Shown one piece after another: positions 1 through 59,076 of a stretch of DNA of 59,555 nt. This DNA is from a virus. The DNA lies in IMG/VR virus record IMGVR_UViG_3300036770_007637, positions 1 through 59,555 of that record; one strand, 5' to 3'. The notes under the pieces were generated by a model. That model had not been told where the DNA came from. It worked only from the letters and a program-made list of their open reading frames with translations, and made no database searches. Made by a program: the position numbers and the translations under genes. Each line of letters opens with the position of its first letter. Position 1 is the first letter of the stretch.

Positions 1-2910
1 ATAGGTATTGCTTTCGCGACCAAATGTTTCTAGCAAATTTTTGTCGCCCATGAACAGTATCAACTTGATGGGATCCACATCACCGCCCTTGAACGGCAGG
101 CTCACGCCCATGTGCAGGCCCGTTGACGAGTTGGTGTAGGCATCACCGGCACCATTGGCCCAGTCTATGATGCGACGCAGTTGCTCAATGGCTTCGGGTA
201 GTGGCATGGGAGGTGAAACAATCTCAAGACCATAATCATCTGAGTCGTCTGAATCCAGGCTGGAATCCGGTTCTATGATGTACTGTCCTTCGCGCCGGGC
301 AGCACCGTGATAGCCCGAACTCACACGCACAGGCATTCCGGTCACACGCTCCAGGCTGTTGCCGATGTCATTCCAGTCACGCTCGCCACCACTGCCACTG
401 CCATCAGTCCAGTAGGGCCAGTCCAGGCTGTATTCGTTGGAGACATCGTTCATGTAGTGCAGACCCTGTTGGTCTAACCAATCGGCTTCATCCAAGTCGC
501 CCATGTATGCATCGAAAAGTTCTTCTGACGCCATCTCGTACCAGGCTCCGCTGCGATCCCAGTCGCGTTCCACATCATCGCGGAACAGGCTCACTGCTTC
601 GGCTTCTATTTGTTCATCGGTGGCATCGTCATCAAGATTGGCACGGGCATCCTCGCGATAACCATCTTCGTTGTCAGGCCACACATTTTCTTCGGCCCAT
701 GACATGAAACGATCTTGGTCGAAATAGTCGTTGGCGAACTGCTCTCTGGCCCAGTCATAAAATTGTTCGGTGAGTTCTTGGCTCAGGCGATCAGCGGCCC
801 TGCGACCGATGGGATTGTCGCCGCCCTGGAAGAAGTCAATGATGTCCTGGATGCTGTACGCACGCTCGTCGGCGTCGAAGTCGGGCTCGCTCTCACCACC
901 ACCGTCGGGATCACTCTGTGTGTTGCGGAATATGAGCTCGGCTTCGAAGCCAGCACGGATACCTTCGGCTTCGGGACTTTTGAGGAACTTCTGGAACTCT
1001 GCGGGTGACATCTTGACTTCTAGGAGATCTTCGTCTTCGCCTGCCTTGACGCTTTCCAGTAGATTGGCCAGATTCTTCATCAGGAGATCGGGACGCCCTT
1101 GGCTGTCGGTCTGCAATCCTAGTTTGTTGGCTTCTTTGCCCAACTGTCCTGGCTTGATATCTACTGTGAGCGCTGTCTTGAAACGTGGATCCTTGGCTTG
1201 CTTCTTGGTGGGGATATAACCCGAAGCATTTTCACGCACATTCACGGGACCAGATATCACTACCGCGGCCTGATATCCATCACCAGCACGTTGCACTTGG
1301 TGCTCAGTCACACGCCATTGATCTTTGCTCATCTCTATGCTGCCGTGTCTCTGTTGTGCATTGGAGATCGCGGCGGCCAGTGCCTGTTCGTAGGCCTGTT
1401 CTATGGATGATCCACCGGCGGTACCTACTACCCTAGTGAGCTGTTGACCACGACCAAATATCTGTCGGCCTCCCACTGATGGAGACTGTCCACGTGCCAT
1501 GTCTCGCACGATGCCTTTGAGTTCTTCTTCTGCACCAGCACGGCTGAATATCTGTGGTGCGTTGTAGATCACGCGGCCTATGTTGTAAGCAGTGCTGGCT
1601 GGCGATTGTGCTTTTGCGGGTGCTTGACCCAGGGCCATAGCGCCAGCCAGAGCGGCGGCCCCTGCTGTTTTTTTCCAATTCTCTTCGAGATCCATTCCTT
1701 GGAACATCTCGGGTTCTTGATCGGCCCAGTGGCGCATGATTCGCCCGGCCATGGCATTGGCTGAATCTTCAAATGCGCTGCCTGTCTCGCCGGCGTCGTC
1801 AGGAAGATCCACTATCTCGTTCTGGCGAGCATGAGTCATCTCATGTGCCAGAGTACGCAGGATATCCACTATGTGCCGACCAGCCGTGGCCAGTTCTACC
1901 GTATGGCTGTCGGGATCATAACGACCAAATGTACCGTTGACTTGGCTCCATTGCGGATCTCTGCGCAGTCTGATGCGTGGCGGTTGTTCCATGCCCAGGA
2001 AGTCGCAACAGGATTTGGTGAATCGATCGATGATATCGCTCTGTGATTCCTGTTGTTCCTGTACGCTCTCGCCGCCATCTCCGCCATCTCCCCCGGCATC
2101 TCCGGTAGCGCCAGAGTCATTGTGATATCCAGGATAGAACCAGCCGCCGAAGGATCCATAAGTGAAACGCTTGCGAGATTTTTTCTTTTTCTTCTTGCGT
2201 TCTGCCAGACTCAGGCGTGCATCTTCGAGATCACTACGATGATCCCATAACTTCTTTATCAAGCCCTGGGTGCGCAACATCTTGAACGCTAGATTCTCAG
2301 GTCCGAACTCGCCACCTTCATCTAGACCGGCCTGGCGATATCGTTTGATAGTGTCTGTTATGTTCTTTATTTTATCTAGGTCATCGCTACGTAGTGCAAG
2401 CTCAATCAGATCTCTGAGTTTTTCGTATTTGGCCTTAGTAGATTTCTCGTCGAGATTACCGCGACGTTGCACAGGTATGCGTGTCCAGTCATCATTCCGG
2501 ATGCTGTATTCGCCTAGGCTGCGCACAGGCTTGTTGGCGTCTTGGACGTAGAGCTCGACGTCATAGCCTCTGACTTTGATGTCGTGTTGATCGTTGTACT
2601 GATATTTCTTAGCGTTGAACAGCTCTTGATAGACTTGGTCGGGATTGAGCTTGCTGAAATCTACTATGAGATGGAGATCTATGTCAGAATGTGGAGTGTA
2701 GCTGTAAGCGGCATTAGAGCCACTCACAGTGATGTCTTCTATGGCTAGGTCATCTATGCCCAGGAATTCGCGGAAATCGTCGGCGATACGGAGCAGGGCC
2801 TCTCGCACTTCGGGACGCATTCGGTCGCGTTCCCAAAGGCGAGGATTGAGATCAGAGTGGAACTTTACCGCGTCGGACAGGCGGTAGCTGTCTAATTCAT
2901 AGATGTCCAT
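1..2910 (-). CDS. Large multidomain protein, partial: nucleotidyltransferase + HExxH peptidase + amidoligase-like
   Basis: Open for 970 codons from the ATG at 2910 and runs off the left edge, so the C-terminus is missing. Three regions can be seen. Residues about 59-79 carry a GSxxxY...SDIDLHL pattern typical of the polymerase-beta nucleotidyltransferase fold. Around residue 354 there is HEMTHARQ, a zinc metallopeptidase HExxH signature. From about 653 (GFEAEL) through DSSL and GLEIVSPP (about 893) to TGLHMGVS (about 930) the sequence matches the order of motifs in amidoligase (COOH-NH2 ligase) domains. A Gly/Asp-rich linker and a short Ala-rich stretch separate the first two parts. The gene starts in the loop of an 8-bp hairpin behind a late promoter word. 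Domain calls rest on motifs only; substrate and virion location are unknown. Confidence 0.75.
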   Translation of the reverse strand, partial: MDIYELDSYRLSDAVKFHSDLNPRLWERDRMRPEVREALLRIADDFREFLGIDDLAIEDITVSGSNAAYSYTPHSDIDLHLIVDFSKLNPDQVYQELFNAKKYQYNDQHDIKVRGYDVELYVQDANKPVRSLGEYSIRNDDWTRIPVQRRGNLDEKSTKAKYEKLRDLIELALRSDDLDKIKNITDTIKRYRQAGLDEGGEFGPENLAFKMLRTQGLIKKLWDHRSDLEDARLSLAERKKKKKKSRKRFTYGSFGGWFYPGYHNDSGATGDAGGDGGDGGESVQEQQESQSDIIDRFTKSCCDFLGMEQPPRIRLRRDPQWSQVNGTFGRYDPDSHTVELATAGRHIVDILRTLAHEMTHARQNEIVDLPDDAGETGSAFEDSANAMAGRIMRHWADQEPEMFQGMDLEENWKKTAGAAALAGAMALGQAPAKAQSPASTAYNIGRVIYNAPQIFSRAGAEEELKGIVRDMARGQSPSVGGRQIFGRGQQLTRVVGTAGGSSIEQAYEQALAAAISNAQQRHGSIEMSKDQWRVTEHQVQRAGDGYQAAVVISGPVNVRENASGYIPTKKQAKDPRFKTALTVDIKPGQLGKEANKLGLQTDSQGRPDLLMKNLANLLESVKAGEDEDLLEVKMSPAEFQKFLKSPEAEGIRAGFEAELIFRNTQSDPDGGGESEPDFDADERAYSIQDIIDFFQGGDNPIGRRAADRLSQELTEQFYDWAREQFANDYFDQDRFMSWAEENVWPDNEDGYREDARANLDDDATDEQIEAEAVSLFRDDVERDWDRSGAWYEMASEELFDAYMGDLDEADWLDQQGLHYMNDVSNEYSLDWPYWTDGSGSGGERDWNDIGNSLERVTGMPVRVSSGYHGAARREGQYIIEPDSSLDSDDSDDYGLEIVSPPMPLPEAIEQLRRIIDWANGAGDAYTNSSTGLHMGVSLPFKGGDVDPIKLILFMGDKNLLETFGRESNTY

Positions 2911-2921
2911 GGTACATCTAT
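2899..2921 (-). promoter_or_regulatory. Start-codon hairpin at the large multidomain gene
   Basis: Perfect 8-bp inverted repeat, ATAGATGT and ACATCTAT, with a 7-nt loop that holds the ATG at 2910. The late promoter word lies directly upstream, so late RNA would start inside or after the upstream arm and could not form the full stem. Confidence 0.6.
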
Positions 2922-2929
2922 TTATTTAG
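2919..2929 (-). promoter_or_regulatory. Putative T4-type late promoter (CTAAATAAATA)
   Basis: Two overlapping TAAATA words 9-13 nt before the ATG at 2910. They also contain the stop codon of the preceding gene, so part of the match could be chance. Confidence 0.45.
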
Positions 2930-3824
2930 AACTTGCTTTGGCCTTTTTCGCTTTGGGTGCAGTTTGTGCCACTACTTTGGCCGTGGGCTTGGTAGTTTCG
3001 GCGATGATCTTGGTACTCACAGGTGCCGGGGCTGGTTGTTCTGCGGCGGGTAATTGTCCAGTGCGTTCCATCTCTGCTTTCAAGTCCTGGTAGAGCTTGG
3101 GCTGTACAGCATAGTCAAACACATAGGTACCTGTGTGCTTGAGCAACACACGCTTGTCTACCCACACCTCACCACCGAAATCACGCCAGTTTTCACAGAA
3201 AGTCCAGTCTTCACTGTAATAGCGATTTTCACGCACAGCAGTATCGAAATAGGTCTTCATATGAGGATCGAGTTCTTTGGGCAGGCCGATATCATTAGCG
3301 AATGTCTTCACGGCCGGATGGCGGGCCAGTTTCTCAAACACATGGCGCTTGATCAACATGAAACCCGTGCCTGTTTTCGAAACTTCTTGCAGATTGCCTT
3401 CTTCTTTGGCGCCATCAAACCCATTCACTACCCATTTCACGGGCATGGTCTTCATGGGATACAAGCCGCCGATGACATCTTTGTCTGCGTTGAGCAAGAC
3501 CAAGAGATGCCAGGGTTCCCAACCGATGTCAGCATCCACGAACATCAAGTGTGTGCTCTGCGGAGTGTTCAGGAATTTAGCTACCAATGTGTTGCGAGCA
3601 CGGCTGATCAATGATTCATTGGTCATGGTCTCGATGGTCCAATCCAAACCCAGCTGTCGGCAGGTGTTTGACCATTTGATGTAGCTCATAAAAGTGCTTT
3701 CAGTGAGCATACCACCATAGCAGGGCATGCAGATATGCACACGCTGTTGTCGCAGATAGTCCACGTTTACTTGGATCTGCATCTGTCCGGGCTGTGCTTG
3801 TTGTTCGGGTTGCTGTTCGGGCAT
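2922..3824 (-). CDS. Glycosyltransferase-like (GT-A) protein
   Basis: 300 residues. After a Gln/Pro-rich N-terminus (about 1-18) comes a GT-A type fold: 'VHICMPCYGG', then an SRARNTLV stretch and a FVDADIGW segment whose DAD fits the metal- and sugar-nucleotide-binding DxD motif. Then comes GGLYPMK, as in GT2-like proteins of T4-like marine phages. The C-terminal 40 residues are Ala/Lys/Pro-rich. The likely role is sugar transfer to a virion or cell-surface target, but the acceptor cannot be told. Its ribosome binding site (AAAGGA) lies in the outer stem of the structure at 3831-3893. Confidence 0.7.
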   Translation of the reverse strand: MPEQQPEQQAQPGQMQIQVNVDYLRQQRVHICMPCYGGMLTESTFMSYIKWSNTCRQLGLDWTIETMTNESLISRARNTLVAKFLNTPQSTHLMFVDADIGWEPWHLLVLLNADKDVIGGLYPMKTMPVKWVVNGFDGAKEEGNLQEVSKTGTGFMLIKRHVFEKLARHPAVKTFANDIGLPKELDPHMKTYFDTAVRENRYYSEDWTFCENWRDFGGEVWVDKRVLLKHTGTYVFDYAVQPKLYQDLKAEMERTGQLPAAEQPAPAPVSTKIIAETTKPTAKVVAQTAPKAKKAKASSK

Positions 3825-3830
3825 TGGATT

Positions 3831-3893
3831 TCCTTTGAAATAATATGCGTATATTTACGCCTGCTACGATTGTAGCAGTATTATTTCAAAGGA
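3831..3893 (-). promoter_or_regulatory. Three-way-junction RNA element with embedded late promoter
   Basis: Outer stem of 15 bp (3831-3845 with 3879-3893) encloses two hairpins: 3847-3860 (5 bp, 4-nt loop) and 3861-3878 (7 bp, 4-nt loop). All pairs are Watson-Crick. The minus-strand downstream arm contains the Shine-Dalgarno AAAGGA of the 3824 gene; the upstream arm contains the stop codon of the 5023 gene. A GTAAATA late promoter word sits in the inner hairpin, and its +1 would fall at about 3846, leaving the Shine-Dalgarno unpaired in late RNA. Confidence 0.85.
3852..3858 (-). promoter_or_regulatory. Putative late promoter GTAAATA inside the three-way junction
   Basis: GTAAATA on the minus strand. 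Five nt after the word would place +1 at about 3846, the unpaired base between the inner hairpin and the outer stem. Confidence 0.6.
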
Positions 3894-5023
3894 TCAACGA
3901 TCGTGTTCCAGTTAGAACGATTGTGTATCAGTCGCAAACCGCCCTGATCGAATCGCAGTCTGTAGCCCATCATCTGCAGTTCGTTACGCAGATCGCGAGC
4001 TTGTGCTGTGGGATCAGTTATAGAAGTGTTTTTGGCTATGTCCAGGATCTGATTGGCGATACCAGTAGCTTTGTCGAGATCAGGAGGCGCTTGTCGATCT
4101 GCAGGAAATTGTAGCACATCTGCTTCGTCGATATAGTCAGGATTTTCTTTGATCTGAGAAAGATCGATCTCTCGGCCCTTGGCTATGGGTCTGCGCCCTT
4201 GTTTGGCCATAAATCGTTCGTATTGTGCCAAGGCATCGACCATGCTCTTGACTACTCCACCTTGATACAGAGTGTACTGCAAACCAGAATAATTCTTGTT
4301 CTTGACCATGTCAACCATGGCGGCAAATTTGCGAGCTAGATTAGAAACTAGACTGGCTTCATCCCAGGTACCCATACCACCATCGGGCACTATCTGATGT
4401 CCTGCGTCCGGGTCATTGACTAATACAGCTTCTTCCACGGGTTTGCTGATGGTTTCATCGAACATGGCCACGATCTTGGCCGCGGCAGCATCATTACCTG
4501 CAGTGGAAGGATACAGCGTTTTGATCAACGCAATTTTTTGTTCGGGTTCCATCTCCGGCCATTTGGCGCGGATTTCAGTGGCTGAAGTCATGCCAGGCCC
4601 AAATGTGGCCACGGGCAGATAAGCTATGTAGGCATGTTTGTCAAATGTTTCGCGACCTGTTCTCTTGTAGGGCTGTAGATATGAAGCCGAGCCATCTTTT
4701 TTCACACCACCTGGGCGAGGTTGTGTGTCGCGGTCTTTTTCACTACGGACAAAGATCAACTGTGTATCTTTGGGATCGTACATCTGTGTGATCTCTTCGG
4801 CACGGAATGGTGATTTTACTTGTATGAATCTGTTGCCCGGTACACCTGCGGCCTGTGCCAGGGTCTTTTTTAGTTTGAAAGGAAAAGGTCTCGCGCTGGT
4901 ATCAGCAGTGGCAGCTACAAACACATCAGCTGATGGAAATGCTTCTCGAGCGGCATTATATAATGCCAAATGCCCTGCATGGAAAGGGTGGAAACCACCT
5001 GGCATGATCACTAATTTTTTCAT
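3881..5023 (-). CDS. Cytidylyltransferase-like nucleotidyltransferase with long C-terminal extension
   Basis: 380 residues. The N-terminus 'MPGGFHPFHAGH' (from residue 8) has the HxGH nucleotide-binding motif of the adenylyl/cytidylyl-transferase superfamily. A second motif, TSATEIR (about residues 151-157), matches the ISSTxxR position of that family. The first roughly 190 residues make the enzyme domain; the remaining 190, with TLYQGG and LAQYERFMAKQGRRP stretches, match nothing I recognise. The substrate (NMN, FMN, sugar or lipid head group) cannot be told from motifs. It shares the neighbourhood with other virion-region enzymes. The late promoter word is placed so that +1 would be the A of the ATG. 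Confidence 0.75.
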   Translation of the reverse strand: MKKLVIMPGGFHPFHAGHLALYNAAREAFPSADVFVAATADTSARPFPFKLKKTLAQAAGVPGNRFIQVKSPFRAEEITQMYDPKDTQLIFVRSEKDRDTQPRPGGVKKDGSASYLQPYKRTGRETFDKHAYIAYLPVATFGPGMTSATEIRAKWPEMEPEQKIALIKTLYPSTAGNDAAAAKIVAMFDETISKPVEEAVLVNDPDAGHQIVPDGGMGTWDEASLVSNLARKFAAMVDMVKNKNYSGLQYTLYQGGVVKSMVDALAQYERFMAKQGRRPIAKGREIDLSQIKENPDYIDEADVLQFPADRQAPPDLDKATGIANQILDIAKNTSITDPTAQARDLRNELQMMGYRLRFDQGGLRLIHNRSNWNTIVDPLK

Positions 5024-5028
5024 ACCAG

Positions 5029-5035
5029 TATTTAT
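5029..5035 (-). promoter_or_regulatory. Putative late promoter ATAAATA, leaderless spacing
   Basis: CATAAATA followed by five bases (CTGGT) and then the ATG at 5023. With T4 late spacing +1 is the A of the ATG. Confidence 0.55.
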
Positions 5036-5039
5036 GGGG

Positions 5040-5477
5040 TCACATGTTTTCCAACAGCCAGAGATACACTGGGCAGGTGAATTTCAATTGTACACGCCCA
5101 TTGCATCCCATATGCCCATAAAACTTGTGTATCGATTGGGATACTTCGGTTCCATTACCATCGTGTATGTATTGAGAAAGATCGATCATCAGATGATCAA
5201 TATTGATTTCGTCTATGGTGATATTTTTTACATCGATGATAGTATCTTCGATGATGTTTCCTTGCTCATCGAGTTTGGTATCTTGCTGTGTTTTCCCTTT
5301 CATCACGATGTAAAGGCAATGCTCAGCGTCATCCTCATTGAATTCGTGCAATATATGATGTGTACCGGGTGAAACCGTGCTGTCGAAAAACTTGAAATTA
5401 TCTAGACGTAATTCTATACCTACATTATGATTTTTAGAGGTGTTGATGACGTCCAGGCTGATCCGCACTTTTTTCAT
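5040..5477 (-). CDS. Uncharacterised phage protein, beta-rich
   Basis: 145 residues from MKKVRISLDV. I chose the ATG at 5477 because earlier in-frame starts lie inside the preceding gene, which ends at 5483. The sequence alternates hydrophobic and charged residues (IELRLDNFKFF; TIIDVKNITIDEINIDHLMIDL) as in small beta-sandwich proteins, and ends VYLWLLENM. It follows two other small virion-type genes with a 5-base gap and is probably co-expressed with them. No function is assigned. Confidence 0.75.
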   Translation of the reverse strand: MKKVRISLDVINTSKNHNVGIELRLDNFKFFDSTVSPGTHHILHEFNEDDAEHCLYIVMKGKTQQDTKLDEQGNIIEDTIIDVKNITIDEINIDHLMIDLSQYIHDGNGTEVSQSIHKFYGHMGCNGRVQLKFTCPVYLWLLENM

Positions 5478-5482
5478 TGCTA

Positions 5483-5854
5483 TCAGTAAGTAAGAGTGAC
5501 TAAAGTTATAGTACCGCCCACGAATCCTGCGACCTGGGCTCGCAACCAAGTGAAGTTGCCTTTTAGAGTCTGGCTGAAATCACCGGTTTGTGGAGTAGAT
5601 CCATCGCCATACGAATAAACATCAAACCATTGACTGTCTGTTTGAGGATCTGCATCCAGTGTACCCTGGATAGTGATCGTGCCAACAAATCCACTCAGCT
5701 GGAATCGTATAGATTGGGTGCTACTGCGTCTGCGGTAATAACCCACACCTTTTTGTTGATCGCCATCAAAAGCCGTGTCGGAGCTGCCGTCGTAATTGCC
5801 CGATGGTGTGCCATATACTGTCAGTGGTAGCAGTACTAAATTTTCTGTTCTCAT
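5483..5854 (-). CDS. Probable virion structural protein
   Basis: 123 residues, rich in Thr, Gly, Ser and aromatic residues, with alternating beta-type segments (SIRFQLSGFVGTITIQGTLD; FTWLRAQVAGFVGGTITLVTLTY). This composition is typical of phage fibre or baseplate accessory proteins and jelly-roll-like domains. The start overlaps the stop of the 54-residue gene upstream (ATGA), so the two are translationally coupled. The structural role is inferred from composition and position only. Confidence 0.7.
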   Translation of the reverse strand: MRTENLVLLPLTVYGTPSGNYDGSSDTAFDGDQQKGVGYYRRRSSTQSIRFQLSGFVGTITIQGTLDADPQTDSQWFDVYSYGDGSTPQTGDFSQTLKGNFTWLRAQVAGFVGGTITLVTLTY

Positions 5855-24187: not shown

Positions 24188-24211
24188 CTCGCTTTGAGTG
24201 TATTTAGCGAG
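24188..24211 (-). promoter_or_regulatory. Ribosome-site repeat with embedded late promoter
   Basis: Perfect 6-bp repeat CTCGCT/AGCGAG. The downstream arm overlaps GCGAGG, the ribosome site of the gene at 24180; CTAAATA (24201-24207) lies at the upstream arm and loop, with +1 at about 24195. Confidence 0.6.
24201..24207 (-). promoter_or_regulatory. Putative late promoter CTAAATA
   Basis: 20 bases before the ATG at 24180, inside the repeat at 24188-24211. Confidence 0.6.
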
Positions 24212-24926: not shown

Positions 24927-27900
24927 TTATGACACTCCGGTACCGTTGATGAACCAGGTATCTGTGGCCACTTTCATTATGGTGGCCATGCCAAAGGTGG
25001 TCACGTTCCTGTTGCCACTCGTAGCATTGCCGGCCAAGTATAGGCTTACGCCCGATCCCTGTGCTATGGTGATGTTGCCGGTGCCTTGGTTCACTATGCT
25101 GATGGCAGCACCTACCGCAAAACCTTGGCTGGCGTTGTTGGCTATGGTCAGGATGTAGTTGCTACTCTGTGTGGAGTAGTAGTGCTTGCCAGCATCGGTG
25201 GTGGCTATAGTAGCGTTGCCAGTGAATGACACCTGGGGAATGTCTCTATAGCCAATGGCAGCACCTACGCCAGCAGGCGAATTGACGAGGTCAATGTATA
25301 GCCCACGGGTGGTTCCACCATCTTCAAAGAATCTTAGCTGATCTCCATAACTGTCGATCACCACGATGTTGCCACTCAAGGTGGTATTGGCAGCGGCTGG
25401 CAACGACAGGTTAATCTCACCACCCTCGAGGCCGCTTTGATTGGAACTGACCAAGATATCACCGGTGATGGTTCCAGTGGCACTTATCAACCCACCTGTG
25501 ACTAAGTTGCCGCCGGTGATGTTGCCGGTGGCTACAATCTGACCAGCCGTGGTTAGATTCCCGCCAGCCACGTTGCCTGTGGCTGTTATAGTGCTAAATC
25601 CAGATATCGTGGGCTGCGGACTGGCATCTGCCCCGATCAAGGATTCTGAAACTATGACGTTGGTGCCTGAGATGTTGCCGGGTGCAGAGAGATCGCCAGT
25701 TGTATCAAACGTCCAGGTCTTGGCGGTATTGGACACATCGGTACTGATTTCAAGATTGGCAACAGTACTGATGGTGCTGTCTACCGTGTCGTTGAGTTGG
25801 ATGTAGGTATTGCTGTTGGGTTCGGCCTCAAGCACCAGAGTGCTGGAACTGCTGGTTCCAGTTATGTGACCCGCCACTGTGATGTCTCCTGACACCTCAA
25901 TATTACCAGGCGTGATAAGGTTGCCGGTGGCATCAAATTCCCACGAATAATCGTTACCATTGTAGTCGGTGCGTATGGTTATGGCCTCAACATTACTGGT
26001 GTTCCTGATGCTGACGAGGTCGTTGCCCTGGATCCTGACGTCATCTGTGACCTCTACGCGGAAATCTAGACCCGTGATCTCTACTTCGCTGTTGGCCGCA
26101 GTGATGAACAGGTCCTCTCCGTCTGGCGGTGACATCGTGGTATTGTTGAACGTGATGTTACCAGTCGAGGACGACACAAACGGAGCGCCATTGGCGTAGA
26201 AGTAGTTGTCAGTGAGTATGGCATTGGCTGAGACATTGCCAGGTGCTGTAAGATCGCCATTGGTGTCAAATGTCCATTCATATCCAGAGTTAGCACTGTC
26301 GGATCGCAGTTGCACATTACCGATGGCAGCCAATTGTGCTCGGTTGCCACTGTCGGTATCGAGCAGGACCAACCCAGCATTGTCATCGGCAGAAGGATAC
26401 AGGGAGCCTTTGTCAGGCAAGCCCAGTTGTCCATTGGAATCAAATGTCCAGATGGTACCGGCGTTGGTCTCTACCGTGACATTACCCGCATTGTTGACTA
26501 CCCGGAGATTGGCTGTGTTGGCAGTGGCGTCGTTGGGCACTTGTAGGAACGCCTGGCCTTCGGGGTTGGGGCTGATGTCAATGCCTGTGGATGCAGAACC
26601 ATCAACGAGTGTTATGTATCCACCAGCTAGGCTGAGATCGCCGATCTCAGCAATGTTGGTCACTACGAGATTGTTGGCTTCTAGATTACCGGTGACGTTG
26701 ACTGCCCCGGGTGTGTCTAAAGTACCATCGGCATTGAAGGTCCAGTTCCAGTTATTACCTTCGATGTCAGCATCGGTCTCGATCGAGACACCATAGGTCA
26801 ATGGTGCTATCACGCGGAATATATTGCCATCGGTTTCGTCACCAATGATTGATCCGCCACGGAAGTACACATAGTTGTTGGCCGTGATGTCTCCGGTGAC
26901 AGAGACGTTGCCAGCAGAGATGTTTCCAGTAGTGGAAACATTTGCAGTGCTGTCGTTGCTCAGCACAGGCTCGCCGTCTACTGTGAGTGTGTTGCCAGTG
27001 ATGCCCAGGGCCACACCACCGATGTAGATGGTGTTGGCAGCTACCCAGAGGTTGCTCCAGTAGTTTGTGGCGTTACCTAAACTGTAAACACCGTTGCCCG
27101 AGGGTATGATGTTACCAGCCCATCCTGCTTCGCCATAGGCCACTGCATTGGCATTGGCATAGGAACTGACACCGGTGAGCAGACTGCCGTTGCCGATGAA
27201 GTAGTTGGCCGAAATGTTGCCACCGCTGTTGATGTTGCCATTTACCCCTATACCACCATATACTAATAATGCGCCGGTGTTTTCGTCCACACTGGCAGTT
27301 TGTTTGGTTATCAGTACCTCACCACCATCGGGGGTGAGATATAAGTTGCCCGAAGATTCGATATTGATATCAGCACCAGATCCGCCAGCGGTCTTGATCA
27401 AGGCGTCCGTAGCGCCGGTGGCATCAGAATACAGTTCGAGATTGCCCAGGATCAGGGTATTGGTCAGCGAGGCGCTGTTGCCCGTTAGGTTACCGGTATA
27501 GGTAGGCAAGTATGCAGCCACGTTGGCGTTACCATAGGTGCTGACGATACCAGTAAGTTGACTACCATTGCCGATAAAGTAGTTGGCTGTGACATTACCT
27601 GCGACATTGGCACCGATATTGGTATGCCATTCGTTGTCAGTGCTGTTGTATAATAGTGTAGCTACATCGTCGTTGGCGCCCACTGTGATACCTGATCCGT
27701 TGGCCTGCGCATCTGTTGCGGCTGTGTTGGCCAGCTGTATGGTTTTGGCATCTGTGACGATGTTGCCAATCTGTATCACATCGCCTTCGACTATGAGATT
27801 GCCATTTACTGTGAGGTCTTCAGTGACAGTGACATAAGCAGCCGAGATGTTGCCCGTGACATCCAGACCGGCGGCACCCACATAAACTCCGCGCCAGCGG

Positions 27901-28172
27901 TTTGTTGTGCTACCTAGATACCATATGTTGTTGGCGTTGGGAACAGTGTTGTTGTTGAGACGCACATTGGCCACACCGTTGGGAGCCAGCACTAGGTCTT
28001 GGTTGACCTGCAGAGTGGTTATGGTGTTACCGGAAATCTGTACATTTGTACCCACTGGACCCGCGGCCCAGATCTGGTCAAAGTTAGAGTCTGTTTTTAT
28101 GAATGCTGTGCGTAACGGGTCGCCTGTGCCGTCATTGGCAGTCGCGCCGGTATTGATGATTTCTTGGGCCAT
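24927..28172 (-). CDS. Long tail-fibre-like protein
   Basis: 1081 residues, the largest complete gene in the window. It opens with INTGATANDGTGDPLRTAF, the T4-like marine phage fibre head, then has long runs of Asn/Thr/Gly/Val beta repeats. The unit ANYFIGNGSQLTG appears twice with small changes, and ITxxGNI/GNV turns recur throughout. The C-terminus is a compact domain (INGTGVS end). Probably a trimeric fibre shaft that reaches the host. It carries a late promoter inside a 9-bp repeat. Confidence 0.85.
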   Translation of the reverse strand: MAQEIINTGATANDGTGDPLRTAFIKTDSNFDQIWAAGPVGTNVQISGNTITTLQVNQDLVLAPNGVANVRLNNNTVPNANNIWYLGSTTNRWRGVYVGAAGLDVTGNISAAYVTVTEDLTVNGNLIVEGDVIQIGNIVTDAKTIQLANTAATDAQANGSGITVGANDDVATLLYNSTDNEWHTNIGANVAGNVTANYFIGNGSQLTGIVSTYGNANVAAYLPTYTGNLTGNSASLTNTLILGNLELYSDATGATDALIKTAGGSGADINIESSGNLYLTPDGGEVLITKQTASVDENTGALLVYGGIGVNGNINSGGNISANYFIGNGSLLTGVSSYANANAVAYGEAGWAGNIIPSGNGVYSLGNATNYWSNLWVAANTIYIGGVALGITGNTLTVDGEPVLSNDSTANVSTTGNISAGNVSVTGDITANNYVYFRGGSIIGDETDGNIFRVIAPLTYGVSIETDADIEGNNWNWTFNADGTLDTPGAVNVTGNLEANNLVVTNIAEIGDLSLAGGYITLVDGSASTGIDISPNPEGQAFLQVPNDATANTANLRVVNNAGNVTVETNAGTIWTFDSNGQLGLPDKGSLYPSADDNAGLVLLDTDSGNRAQLAAIGNVQLRSDSANSGYEWTFDTNGDLTAPGNVSANAILTDNYFYANGAPFVSSSTGNITFNNTTMSPPDGEDLFITAANSEVEITGLDFRVEVTDDVRIQGNDLVSIRNTSNVEAITIRTDYNGNDYSWEFDATGNLITPGNIEVSGDITVAGHITGTSSSSTLVLEAEPNSNTYIQLNDTVDSTISTVANLEISTDVSNTAKTWTFDTTGDLSAPGNISGTNVIVSESLIGADASPQPTISGFSTITATGNVAGGNLTTAGQIVATGNITGGNLVTGGLISATGTITGDILVSSNQSGLEGGEINLSLPAAANTTLSGNIVVIDSYGDQLRFFEDGGTTRGLYIDLVNSPAGVGAAIGYRDIPQVSFTGNATIATTDAGKHYYSTQSSNYILTIANNASQGFAVGAAISIVNQGTGNITIAQGSGVSLYLAGNATSGNRNVTTFGMATIMKVATDTWFINGTGVS

Positions 28173-28174
28173 CT

Positions 28175-28207
28175 GTCTGTTCCTTTTGTATATTTACCGG
28201 AACAGAC
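28175..28207 (-). promoter_or_regulatory. Ribosome-site-hiding hairpin with embedded late promoter at the fibre gene
   Basis: Perfect 9-bp repeat GTCTGTTCC/GGAACAGAC with a 15-nt loop. The downstream arm covers the ribosome site (AAAAGGAAC); the loop holds GTAAATA (28191-28197). Predicted +1 is about 28185, so late RNA lacks the upstream arm. Confidence 0.8.
28191..28197 (-). promoter_or_regulatory. Putative late promoter GTAAATA
   Basis: 18 bases before the fibre ATG at 28172, in the loop of the 9-bp repeat. Confidence 0.7.
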
Positions 28208-52250: not shown

Positions 52251-53696
52251 TCAGTTATAATCTATACCGCGTCCGCGTCTCGTGAATGACCATATCAACA
52301 ATACCACGCCTAATATTATCAGAGTCAGTGTTATGGGTCTGGTAAAAAACACAGTCCAGTCATACAATGTAAATGCCTGTTGTGTATAATTCTCTAGCTT
52401 TTCACTGACTATGAATGTCAAGAGCACAGCAGGTCTGCTAATCTGGAAATATTTACATGCTATACCTATGGCACTGCAAATAAAGAGTATGTAAAAATCG
52501 TTGACTGTCTGTGTGTACTGGAAACAAGCCCATGTGATTACTGCGATGATCAGAGAACTGTAGATCCAATAAGGTATCTCTAAAATCTTCACGATCAATC
52601 TAGTGGCAAACAACCCAATCACACAACTGATTATCGTGGCCGCTACGAAACTGCCGCCCACTGCCCAGATCATGCGATCGTCTTCTAACAATGAAGGTGT
52701 CCCTAGCTCAAGCCCGAAGTACATGCAAACCGCCATGACCACTGCGGCAAAAGGTGCAGCAGGAATGCCAAACAGCAAAGTAGGAATCATGCTAGATGCT
52801 TTTTGTGCGTTGTTTGCTCCTTCACACCCTAGGAGGCCTTTGGGATTGCCGTTGCCAAACTTTTCATTGCTGTGCTTGGCCACAGTGGACCCGTAGGCCA
52901 CGATATCACCTATGGTACCACCGGCACCTGGTAGCATACCTGTGATGAATCCTATCACTCCGCCACGCCCTACATCACGCCAATTCTCCCGACAATCTCT
53001 CCAGGCCTGGCGCATCTGAGACCAATAAGTTTTCTTATCTATAGATTCTATACGCATATGCCTTTGATGCCAACCTTCGATAAGTTCAGGCACAGCAAAC
53101 AATCCAGCGATCATTGGAATAAATTGTATGCCAGCTTCAAGGTACTCCCAACCAAAAGTAAATCTCGGTGCGGCTGTGCTGGGATCCAACCCGATCAATC
53201 CCAAGAACATGCCCAGTGAGATCGCTACTGCGGCTCGGATATAACTCTTGCTGGTTATCAAGCCCACACAGGCCAAGCTCAAGAAAATAAACGCCGCGAA
53301 TTCTGGTATACCAAAGTACAGCACTATTTTACTGTAGTATGGCATGAAAGCGAACGCCAATGTGCCCCAGATCAAACCATTGATGGTACTGTCGATCAAT
53401 GCTATGCCGATAGCACGAGCTCCTTCGCCGCGTTTGGCCATGGGATGGCCATCGATGATCGATGCGGCAGTCTGTCCTCCCCCGGGGATACCTGTGAGGA
53501 TAGAAGTATAACTGTCGCCGGTACTAGAAGCTGCCACCAGACTGATAAGGAAAGCCAATCCTAGATACGGGTCTGCCTGGAAGAAATGGGCCAGACTGAA
53601 CACTGTCAGCAACCCAGTGGTAGCTCCAGCCACTGGTATCACGCCAATGACGAATCCATAGATGCTACCAATCAAGCACCAGATGATATATTCCAT
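52251..53696 (-). CDS. tctA: TctA-family permease (tripartite tricarboxylate transporter)
   Basis: 481 residues, about 10-12 membrane segments. ILTGIPGGGQTAASIIDGHP and PMAKRGEGARAIGIALIDST correspond to the first TctA signature; ITGMLPGAGGTIGDIVAYGS to the second, and the third, FGIPAAPFAAVVMAV, is also clear. The family moves tricarboxylates and other organic acids using a cation gradient together with TctC and the small subunit TctB. No TctB gene is seen in the window. Transcribed with the second TctC gene (9-base gap). Confidence 0.92.
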   Translation of the reverse strand: MEYIIWCLIGSIYGFVIGVIPVAGATTGLLTVFSLAHFFQADPYLGLAFLISLVAASSTGDSYTSILTGIPGGGQTAASIIDGHPMAKRGEGARAIGIALIDSTINGLIWGTLAFAFMPYYSKIVLYFGIPEFAAFIFLSLACVGLITSKSYIRAAVAISLGMFLGLIGLDPSTAAPRFTFGWEYLEAGIQFIPMIAGLFAVPELIEGWHQRHMRIESIDKKTYWSQMRQAWRDCRENWRDVGRGGVIGFITGMLPGAGGTIGDIVAYGSTVAKHSNEKFGNGNPKGLLGCEGANNAQKASSMIPTLLFGIPAAPFAAVVMAVCMYFGLELGTPSLLEDDRMIWAVGGSFVAATIISCVIGLFATRLIVKILEIPYWIYSSLIIAVITWACFQYTQTVNDFYILFICSAIGIACKYFQISRPAVLLTFIVSEKLENYTQQAFTLYDWTVFFTRPITLTLIILGVVLLIWSFTRRGRGIDYN

Positions 53697-53697
53697 A

Positions 53698-54258
53698 TCA
53701 GACCTCCAACAAGCGTGCGATAGGATTAGTCAGGACAGGATGAGTTTGGCGTTCTGGGTGCCATACTATGGCATGTATAGGCAATGATTTGTGGCTAAAC
53801 GCTTCGATCCTGCCATCATTGTCCCAAGCCTCTGCTAAGAAATCTGGCCCAATGGAATCGATGCATTGTGTATGATAACTGTTGACCTCTAGCTTTTCCG
53901 ACTCAATGATCACTGTATGCGTGGTACCATGATGTCCTTCGCAACGACCATTTTTACCGCCGCCGAGATCATTGATAACAAACGCACCATGACAGATTCC
54001 GATTATGGGAATGTTATTGATCACTGCCCAAGCGTAGGCGAAATCTTCAGTCATGTGCCGTGCATAACTGTCCGGGCCGCCGGTTATCAGCAGGCAATCC
54101 ATGCCAAGTGATCCAAAATCCTTCTGCAAGAGATTTGGTATGGTCACTAGCTCGTGCCCTTGTAGAAAATCATACCATACTCGTTCCAGTGCATCAAATA
54201 CAAATTGGCCTGCGGTGTTTTCTATGACTACTTCTCGTTGTGTAAGAGCTATGCGCAT
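53698..54258 (-). CDS. Class I glutamine amidotransferase-like (PuuD/C26-type) protein
   Basis: 186 residues. LLITGGPDS, the nucleophile elbow IIGICHGAFV (Cys89) and WHPERQ (His and Glu near residues 166-168) form a full Cys-His-Glu triad. The length and RWY-type start (LERVWYDFLQGHEL) recall gamma-glutamyl hydrolases such as PuuD. It may hydrolyse gamma-glutamyl amides or act as amidotransferase subunit. One base before tctA. A late-type terminator lies just upstream. Confidence 0.85.
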   Translation of the reverse strand: MRIALTQREVVIENTAGQFVFDALERVWYDFLQGHELVTIPNLLQKDFGSLGMDCLLITGGPDSYARHMTEDFAYAWAVINNIPIIGICHGAFVINDLGGGKNGRCEGHHGTTHTVIIESEKLEVNSYHTQCIDSIGPDFLAEAWDNDGRIEAFSHKSLPIHAIVWHPERQTHPVLTNPIARLLEV

Positions 54259-55764: not shown

Positions 55765-55816
55765 CATGGGTTTCCTATTCATAAAATGTGAGATCGATCA
55801 GTGCAATCCACAATCA

Positions 55817-55823
55817 TATTTAC
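55817..55823 (-). promoter_or_regulatory. Putative late promoter GTAAATA for the ferritin-like pair
   Basis: About 52 bases before the ATG at 55764. Confidence 0.5.
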
Positions 55824-55831
55824 CGATCTCT

Positions 55832-57013
55832 CTAGGTGTATTTACCTTTTTGGCAGGCTTTTTTGAGGTGCGTAAACGTCAGATGATCCGGCAACAGTTC
55901 TAAGAGCTGATCGCGATGATCAGCAAAGTTCAAGAGAGTAAGATCATCAAGCATGGCGACCCAAGGATTTCGTTCTAAAAAGTATACGGCTAGATTTGAG
56001 CCCGACGATGTCTTGGTTTTGAATCGATGATAGTAAGGGTCCTTGGTCCCTCGATATATGTAGTCCTTGGCTGCTTGTTTGTAATTTCCCACCGTATTCC
56101 CGTATTTTGCTCCATGCATATTGCTGGCCATCGACCAGAGCTGATACTCCTGCGTATCAAACCATGTTATCATGTGATCAAAGTAATCTCGGGCATTGTC
56201 CGAGCGACTCCAGCCTCCCCAAAGGAGAGTTCGTAGCTTGATAGAAACCCAGCTGTAGTTGAAAAATGTCCACCAAAAAAAATCATGATAGGAATTCACC
56301 GGAACATCCACAGATCCGAGATTTTCCGTCACAGTTTCATAATACCAACGACCAAATTCCTGATTATTTCTACCTAGATATTTGATGAGATCATCGGGTT
56401 CTTTGAAAATACTCTTGCTCATTGATTCTTTGTCATCTAGCATCATCATCTGGGCTATGCTACCGGCAAACAGCTGATCGGCGGGCTCGCCATTTATAAA
56501 AAAATGCTGATCATCGACATTGTGTATCCAATGGGATGAATCCAGGACTCTGAAGTTGGGTCTGATGAATTTGTTGAAGAACCATGGATATTCTGCTATA
56601 CTACCATGATTGCAGGCTATGCTGATGTTGCCCCAGTCGGACTTGGGTATGTTTTTCAGGATACTACAGACTATGGTCGTAGAATCGATGCCACCGCTCC
56701 AAAAAACGATCCAGGGAAGATTCCATTTTTGTTGTCTCAGTTCCAGGCATCGTAGATCGGTGGCCGCACCAAAATCCAGTGAGAAATCAGGTTGGAATTT
56801 TGGCATGCGCCAGCCAAGGATGTCTACGATATCGTTGGAAAATGGAAGATTGTTTTCTCCGGCCCTGACATATAGACTCTGTGTACCAGGATCAAAATTA
56901 GTATTGCAGAACTCAAGGCAATGCCAAGGATATGAAAAAGAATCTAGCAAGTTTCTAGATTCTGTATCTGCCAACAGAGATTGCTGATTCAAATAGATAA
57001 TTTTTTTGGCCAA
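55832..57013 (-). CDS. Asparagine-synthase-like PP-loop protein
   Basis: 393 residues from a TTG, with AAAGG ten bases upstream. VFWSGGIDSTTIVC (104-117) is the PP-loop that binds ATP; GEPADQLFAGS is the GADELFGG-type motif of the asparagine synthase family. No N-terminal glutaminase domain is present. Related stand-alone proteins form amide bonds, e.g. in peptide maturation. The gene is AT-rich relative to its neighbours and overlaps the 57618 gene by 25 bases, so the two form a pair. Confidence 0.8.
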   Translation of the reverse strand: MAKKIIYLNQQSLLADTESRNLLDSFSYPWHCLEFCNTNFDPGTQSLYVRAGENNLPFSNDIVDILGWRMPKFQPDFSLDFGAATDLRCLELRQQKWNLPWIVFWSGGIDSTTIVCSILKNIPKSDWGNISIACNHGSIAEYPWFFNKFIRPNFRVLDSSHWIHNVDDQHFFINGEPADQLFAGSIAQMMMLDDKESMSKSIFKEPDDLIKYLGRNNQEFGRWYYETVTENLGSVDVPVNSYHDFFWWTFFNYSWVSIKLRTLLWGGWSRSDNARDYFDHMITWFDTQEYQLWSMASNMHGAKYGNTVGNYKQAAKDYIYRGTKDPYYHRFKTKTSSGSNLAVYFLERNPWVAMLDDLTLLNFADHRDQLLELLPDHLTFTHLKKACQKGKYT

Positions 57014-58028: not shown

Positions 58029-59042
58029 TTACTTGTTGTTGATCTGGCTCCAAACACGCTCGCGGATCTGCTGTGTGAGGCTGTCTGGCAATGGCACATA
58101 GTCTAATTCTAGTGCAGCCTTCTTGCCGTTGCGGAATGACCAGTCAAAGAACTTCAGCACTTCTGCTGATGCTGCCTTGTCGGTAGGATCACGATACATG
58201 ATGATGAAACTGGCTGTGCTTATAGGCCAGGTATTGGCACCGGGTTGATCCACGATGGAGATACCCATGCCCGGAGTTGAAAACCAGTCTGCACCGGCAG
58301 CAGCCGCGGCAAAGGTCGTGTCATCTGGGCGTACGAACTTGCCATCTCGGTTCTGCATCTGGAAGTAAGGAAGATTGTTCTTCTTGGCATAGGCATATTC
58401 CACATAGCCGATGGCACCCTTGATTCTGGACACGTTAGCGGCCACACCTTCGTTGCCTTTACCTCCCATGGAACTTGCAGCAGGCCATTTGACAGCGGCA
58501 CCCTTACCAACCTTCTCTGCCCACAGTTTTGAACTCACAGTGAGATAGTCTGTGAAATTGAAAGTGGTTCCAGATCCGTCTGCCCGATGCACCACGGTGA
58601 TGGTCTGGTCCGGCAGCCGCTTGCCCGGATTCAAGGCAGCGATCTTGGGGTCGTTCCAGTTCACGATCCAGCCCATGAACATTTCAGCCAGCACAGCACC
58701 GGTGATGCGTAGTTCGCCCTGGGCAAAACCATCCAGATTGAAGATAGGCACTGTACCACCGATGATGGCAGGGAACTGTATCTGTCCTTTTTCTGCCAGT
58801 TTATCGCCCGCAACAGGAGCGTCAGTGGCTCCAAAGGTCACGGTCTTGCCGTTGATCTGGCGGATGCCGCCCGATGAACCGATGCTTTGATAGTTCAGGG
58901 AGACACCGGAATCTTTTTTGTACATTTCAGCCCATTTGGCGTAGATGGGATAGGGGAACGTGGCACCTGCACCAGTGATAGTCTGTGCCTGGGCAGTCAC
59001 AGCAGTGGCAGCCAGCACCGCGGCAATAATATATTTGAACAC
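58029..59042 (-). CDS. pstS: Phosphate-binding protein PstS
   Basis: 337 residues from a GTG with a TAGGAGA ribosome site; the ATG eleven codons earlier lacks one. A signal peptide (AAVLAATAVTAQA) precedes TITGAGATFPYPIYAKWAEM, the standard PstS start; GSSGGI, FGATDAPV and HRADGSGTTFNFTDYL form the phosphate site. It binds phosphate in the periplasm for the host PstCAB transporter. A Pho-box-like repeat upstream suggests control by host PhoB; it has its own terminator. Confidence 0.95.
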   Translation of the reverse strand: MFKYIIAAVLAATAVTAQAQTITGAGATFPYPIYAKWAEMYKKDSGVSLNYQSIGSSGGIRQINGKTVTFGATDAPVAGDKLAEKGQIQFPAIIGGTVPIFNLDGFAQGELRITGAVLAEMFMGWIVNWNDPKIAALNPGKRLPDQTITVVHRADGSGTTFNFTDYLTVSSKLWAEKVGKGAAVKWPAASSMGGKGNEGVAANVSRIKGAIGYVEYAYAKKNNLPYFQMQNRDGKFVRPDDTTFAAAAAGADWFSTPGMGISIVDQPGANTWPISTASFIIMYRDPTDKAASAEVLKFFDWSFRNGKKAALELDYVPLPDSLTQQIRERVWSQINNK

Positions 59043-59062
59043 TTGAAATCTCCTATGGAAAA

Positions 59063-59076
59063 AGTGCGATCGCACT
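59063..59076. promoter_or_regulatory. 14-bp palindrome in the pstS leader
   Basis: AGTGCGATCGCACT, perfect palindrome between the Pho-box-like repeat and the pstS ribosome site. Hairpin or operator; role unknown. Confidence 0.4.

Follow-up and report, generated by a model that had tools for sequence, protein, structure and literature searches.

On upstream transcripts of bacteriophage T4, the Shine-Dalgarno (SD) sequences of genes e, soc and 49 are hidden in a helix, while the late promoter lies within the DNA of the 5' strand of that helix and late transcripts lack this strand (PMC3014915). Hairpins carrying the promoter in their 5' arm have also been described for I-TevI, I-TevII, I-TevIII, segB and Aeh1 mobE (PMC2988022). 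The locus described here, positions 3831-3893 of a viral DNA, shares with the e, soc and 49 systems a late promoter that is predicted to lie inside an SD-sequestering RNA structure, and it probably controls when the downstream gene is translated, as a gate of the type known from T4 gene e, soc and I-TevI.

The window, meaning the whole stretch of DNA analysed, is a virus record of 59,555 bases, and its source is a large uncultivated T4-like phage. Nearly all of its long genes lie on the minus strand, including the two genes flanking the fold, so the transcript of interest runs from 3893 to 3831. All features below are on the minus strand.

Structure of the fold and flanking genes

The earlier note had described a perfect three-way junction at 3831-3893, and the sequence bears this out: stems of 15, 7 and 5 bp give 27 Watson-Crick pairs with zero mismatches. 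The 15-bp outer stem pairs 3879-3893 with 3831-3845. Its 5' arm (TCCTTTGAAATAATA, 3879..3893) reads, in transcript sense, as codons CCT-TTG-AAA, the stop codon TAA of the upstream gene (3883-3881) and two extra bases, and it includes the conserved A-tract promoter element GAAATAATA. The 3' arm (TATTATTTCAAAGGA, 3831..3845) ends in the SD sequence AAAGGA (3836-3831), 6 nt ahead of the downstream ATG at 3824, so that the upstream stop and the downstream SD sequence occupy opposite arms, as had been claimed. Within the outer stem, the left hairpin CTGCTAC-AATC-GTAGCAG (3861..3878; arms 3861-3867 and 3872-3878) comprises 7 bp, and the right hairpin GCGTA-AATA-TACGC (GCGTAAATATACGC, 3847..3860; arms 3847-3851 and 3856-3860), the second in transcript sense, comprises 5 bp and contains the GTAAATA of the late promoter -10. 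Both loops have 4 nt and are tetraloops in that sense, but neither is a stable GNRA or UNCG loop.

The predicted minimum free energy (MFE) of 3831-3893 is -30.4 kcal/mol on the plus strand and -30.7 kcal/mol on the minus strand, and none of 200 dinucleotide shuffles was as stable (z -8.0), in agreement with the claim that the fold lies far beyond chance. In a composition-corrected scan of minus-strand 63-nt stretches starting at every third base, it ranked first with a z of -7.5, with the runners-up, terminator-like hairpins among them, ranging from -5.3 down. Raw MFE values without this correction are similar for several other stretches of the window, and the designation as strongest fold thus rests on the composition-corrected z. 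Among perfect inverted repeats within 80 nt in the window, the outer arm was the longest found, and the record holds no second copy of the fold. The suggestion of a tRNA-mimic-like fold found no support, as ARAGORN returned 0 hits in its tRNA search and an Rfam scan of 2500-5500 gave no match up to E 5.

The downstream, putatively gated gene (2922..3824, 300 aa, phrog_1574) encodes a GT-A-glycosyltransferase-like protein with a DADIGW motif recognized by eye, for which no solved relative was found by sequence. The upstream gene (3881..5023, 380 aa) encodes a protein with a cytidylyltransferase-like N-terminus containing HxGH, just under the Pfam cut-off, and has its own TAAATA (ATAAATA) 10-11 nt ahead of its ATG. 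KTAAATA lies 10-13 nt ahead of an ATG at 63 of 156 gene-preceding motif sites in G001, G003, G004, G006, G007 and the window (5034-5023 in the latter), a spacing partly favoured by the start choice of the script; with the start placed as in T4, late mRNAs from these sites would have little or no leader. Elsewhere, this phage record encodes a full-length TctA membrane subunit of a tripartite tricarboxylate transporter (52251-53696; PF01970, E 6e-103), adjoining a glutamine amidotransferase/peptidase C26-like gene (53698-54258), as well as a PstS-like periplasmic binding protein (58029-59075; PF12849, E 4e-35).

Late promoter and late sigma factor

The T4-type, gp55-like late promoter core GTAAATA occupies 3852..3858 (TAAATA at 3857-3852), inside the inner hairpin as the earlier note had placed it. 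Homologues of the downstream gene were gathered from viral contigs, yielding 85 distinct upstream regions, and TAAATA is present in 81 of them, almost always 29-34 nt ahead of the ATG; it is absent from the 90 nt ahead of the start in the homologue of cyanophage ACG-2014f. Genes for a gp55-type late sigma factor (phrog_12791, phrog_234) were identified in the records of 9 of 12 relatives, with E values of 2e-62 to 8e-74 for phrog_12791, and the three records lacking one are shorter. The evidence for these genes thus comes from relatives' records rather than from the window itself, a 59.5-kb fragment. The gp33 family PF16805 had no match anywhere, a result that is uninformative because its control gave no match either. 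With T4 spacing, transcription is predicted to start 11 nt past the initial T of TAAATA, at 3846, which is the sole unpaired junction base and coincides with the start proposed in the earlier note.

Homologues of the gated gene share a conserved A-tract (RAAAAWWWW) that lies at a fixed distance from the late promoter, 22-30 nt ahead of TAAATA. The tract is much weaker at other late promoters and is possibly an UP-like element specific to the gated gene. A sigma70-like -10 (TATAAT-like), which visual inspection placed about 12 nt ahead of TAAATA, was discarded because the alignment columns were too weak.

Predicted accessibility of the ribosome site

As a timing gate, the locus would operate as follows. 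RNA from the upstream gene, presumably made early in infection as an early/middle or read-through transcript, would hold both arms and fold into the three-way junction, locking AAAGGA in the 15-bp stem and leaving the downstream gene poorly translated. A gp55-like late sigma factor would subsequently fire from the GTAAATA inside the fold, and the RNA beginning at about 3846 would contain neither the 5' arm nor the inner hairpins, freeing the SD sequence. Consistent with this, the SD sequence is predicted to be paired in a helix of the read-through RNA, in which opening the SD sequence would cost 10.1-10.5 kcal/mol, compared with 1.4 kcal/mol in RNA from 3846. A start two bases further up would leave the late RNA somewhat more folded, with an SD opening cost of 3.25 kcal/mol. 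The high predicted cost in read-through RNA, along with SD-directed pairing that is conserved across the family, agrees with the proposed sequestration of the ribosome site.

Conservation in close relatives

Pairing is conserved among relatives for the outer stem and the lock on the SD sequence, but not for the detailed junction. The three-way shape is confined to the window and L002, the nearest relative, in which the left hairpin differs; it was therefore rejected as a conserved RNA family. The outer stem persists in other close relatives, with differing interiors: of seven close relatives, three have the complete right arm, and the left inner arm is paired in 52% of the cells of this comparison. 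In distant relatives, unrelated single hairpins take the place of the junction. The close relatives L002, L022 and L025-L028 keep TGAAATAA..TTATTT(C/T)A, and in all of these except L028 the SD sequence is additionally locked by a short CC/GG pairing; in L028 the outer stem is absent from the predicted minimum-energy fold. In the window alone among the close relatives, the coding sequence reads CCTTTG instead of CCAATG, which converts the two mismatches between these elements into U-A pairs. The outer stem shows 7 invariant pairs and one pair with a double change in the seven closest sequences, and its own covariation is weak because the stem barely varies.

Family-wide selection for pairing over the SD sequence

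In a swap test, the promoter-side flank was exchanged between homologues, with conserved motifs and composition all retained. Own flanks formed stronger duplexes than swapped ones (-10.2 vs -7.5 kcal/mol; 54 clusters, p 5e-7), and a far-upstream control segment gave p 0.86. The effect was present in the promoter-proximal part (p 3e-4), whereas the distal segment, which forms the outer stem in the window, showed no own-over-swap gain across the whole family (p 0.33). The family-wide rule is thus a promoter-proximal hairpin, of which the clade of the window has its own longer version, and pairing between the distal A-tract and the U-rich leader was dismissed as a family-wide rule.

Selection is likewise apparent in the predicted SD opening cost, which averaged 5.0 kcal/mol in read-through RNA, 1.2 kcal/mol in late RNA and 3.0 kcal/mol with a swapped 5' flank over 80 homologous regions (own vs swapped, p 2e-7 over 53 clusters). 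The gain over swaps was significant solely at -18..-5 before the ATG, peaking at -15..-5 on the SD sequence and the bases just upstream, with no gain at the ATG or within the coding sequence. Opening -9..-5 costs at least 6 kcal/mol in about 36% of cluster representatives vs 9% of individual swaps, and stems scoring at least 9 occurred at 32 sites vs 6.1 in swaps. The best of 210 column pairs, (-2, -11) with a z of 5.4, matches the pairing register that visual inspection of the hairpins had shown. All of these p values are approximate, as the clusters were formed by sequence similarity and not from a tree. Little pairing is present in some homologues, such as L029, L030, L064 and L080. Compensatory change appears in the wider family and is weak for the outer stem of the seven close sequences. 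Overall, there is good evidence that relatives keep the function rather than the shape.

Other late promoters

A further putative gate of this kind, GTCTGTTCC-gg-TAAATA-tacaaaa-GGAACAGAC (28175..28207), precedes a tail-fibre-like gene (28172..24927). At the corresponding gene, G001 has a CCTGTTCC / GGAACAGG stem of the same design in other letters, and long stems occur in L166 and L170. A permutation test on this gate gave p 1.5e-4 (n = 11), with several of the 11 lacking a convincing stem. Among 49 SD-type late promoters from six genomes, pairing was modestly enriched (z -2.7 to -3.5) and six ranked first where about one would be expected; this modest enrichment suggests that a minority of such promoters carry the gate and that it serves particular genes rather than all.

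Gene 24180 of the window was considered as another gate and rejected, since its 6-bp promoter/SD stem is not kept in G001. This CTCGCT/AGCGAG stem (24188-24211), which links the late promoter and the SD sequence of the gene, resembles that of T4 I-TevII. In addition, a tandem GTAAATA pair (55844 and 55822) stands before a single gene at 55782-55850, with a GAGATCG/CGATCTC stem surrounding the second copy, and the gene behind it has no homologue in the genomes compared.

Alternative explanations

The stop codon inside the 5' arm could point to translational coupling, in which a ribosome terminating at the UAA (3883-3881) would cover much of the arm, melt the stem and free the SD sequence, setting stoichiometry and not timing. 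However, initiation at the late promoter, which lies within the fold, would circumvent any dependence on upstream translation, and SD-directed pairing persists in homologues with other upstream genes, where the promoter often forms the 5' arm, as well as at the tail-fibre-like gene, which lies behind an unrelated gene. Coupling is thus an unlikely primary role, although it could act in addition to a timing gate: on completing the upstream gene, a ribosome would arrive at the 5' arm and might open the gate, and coupling via the upstream stop would then weaken it under efficient translation of the upstream gene. It is also conceivable that the palindrome acts as DNA, as a dimeric regulator site or a cruciform at the late promoter, with RNA folding being incidental. 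Constraint at the RNA level should favour G-U over A-C mismatches, yet the two are equally frequent in strong stems (14:14), so this RNA-specific signature is absent and the asymmetry was abandoned as proof of RNA-level selection; moreover, own-over-swap pairing is detected on the opposite strand too (p 7e-5). Nevertheless, the pairing gain peaks on or just upstream of the SD sequence rather than on the promoter symmetry axis, and stem sequences are unrelated between homologues, indicating that there is no common binding site and rendering a DNA-level function improbable.

Even less probable is an origin in shared descent and composition, with a conserved A-tract that happens to complement the U-rich leader and a window that drifted to a perfect match. 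Both elements are conserved in their own right, and the distal segment alone carries no own-versus-swap signal, as this would predict, but the fold ranks first in the window (z -7.5), and the promoter-proximal segment and SD opening are under selection when measured against the same composition. As for a role in RNA processing or stability, a 15-bp helix with two hairpins would on general grounds be a plausible substrate for an RNase III-like enzyme, or might protect the RNA 3' of it. The fold is too plastic for this in relatives, some of which have single short hairpins, and conservation tracks the SD sequence with no Rfam match, leaving such a role scarcely credible. The translational timing gate remains the preferred reading.

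Comparison with known systems

More tentatively, RNA gating at selected late promoters may be a standing layer of temporal control in this clade, with stems turning over under functional selection. If so, simple promoter hairpins, SD-covering stems and the perfect three-way junction would be changing forms of one gate, and the target genes, glycosyltransferase-like and tail-fibre-like, would keep the gate and not its sequence. The classic T4 cases, mostly the lysozyme gene and homing endonucleases, would thereby be extended to a widespread uncultivated clade, with gating reaching apparent structural or modification genes, and dozens of natural variants are available for addressing the gate strength that is required and the way in which gates evolve.

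The type of phage timing switch is a known one; here it would take a new shape and recur across a clade of giant phages. Relative to T4 e, soc and 49, the window has a perfect three-way junction, with its 5' arm supplied by the 3' end of the upstream gene, the promoter reads GTAAATA instead of the T4 TATAAATA, the gene is different, and the host of the element is an uncultivated giant phage known from sequence alone. The T4 I-TevII record contains a CCTCGTAT..ATACGAGG hairpin around TATAAATA, similar to the single-hairpin form of the distant relatives. However, whereas the I-Tev, segB and mobE hairpins guard homing endonucleases, those described here precede glycosyltransferase-like and tail-fibre-like genes.
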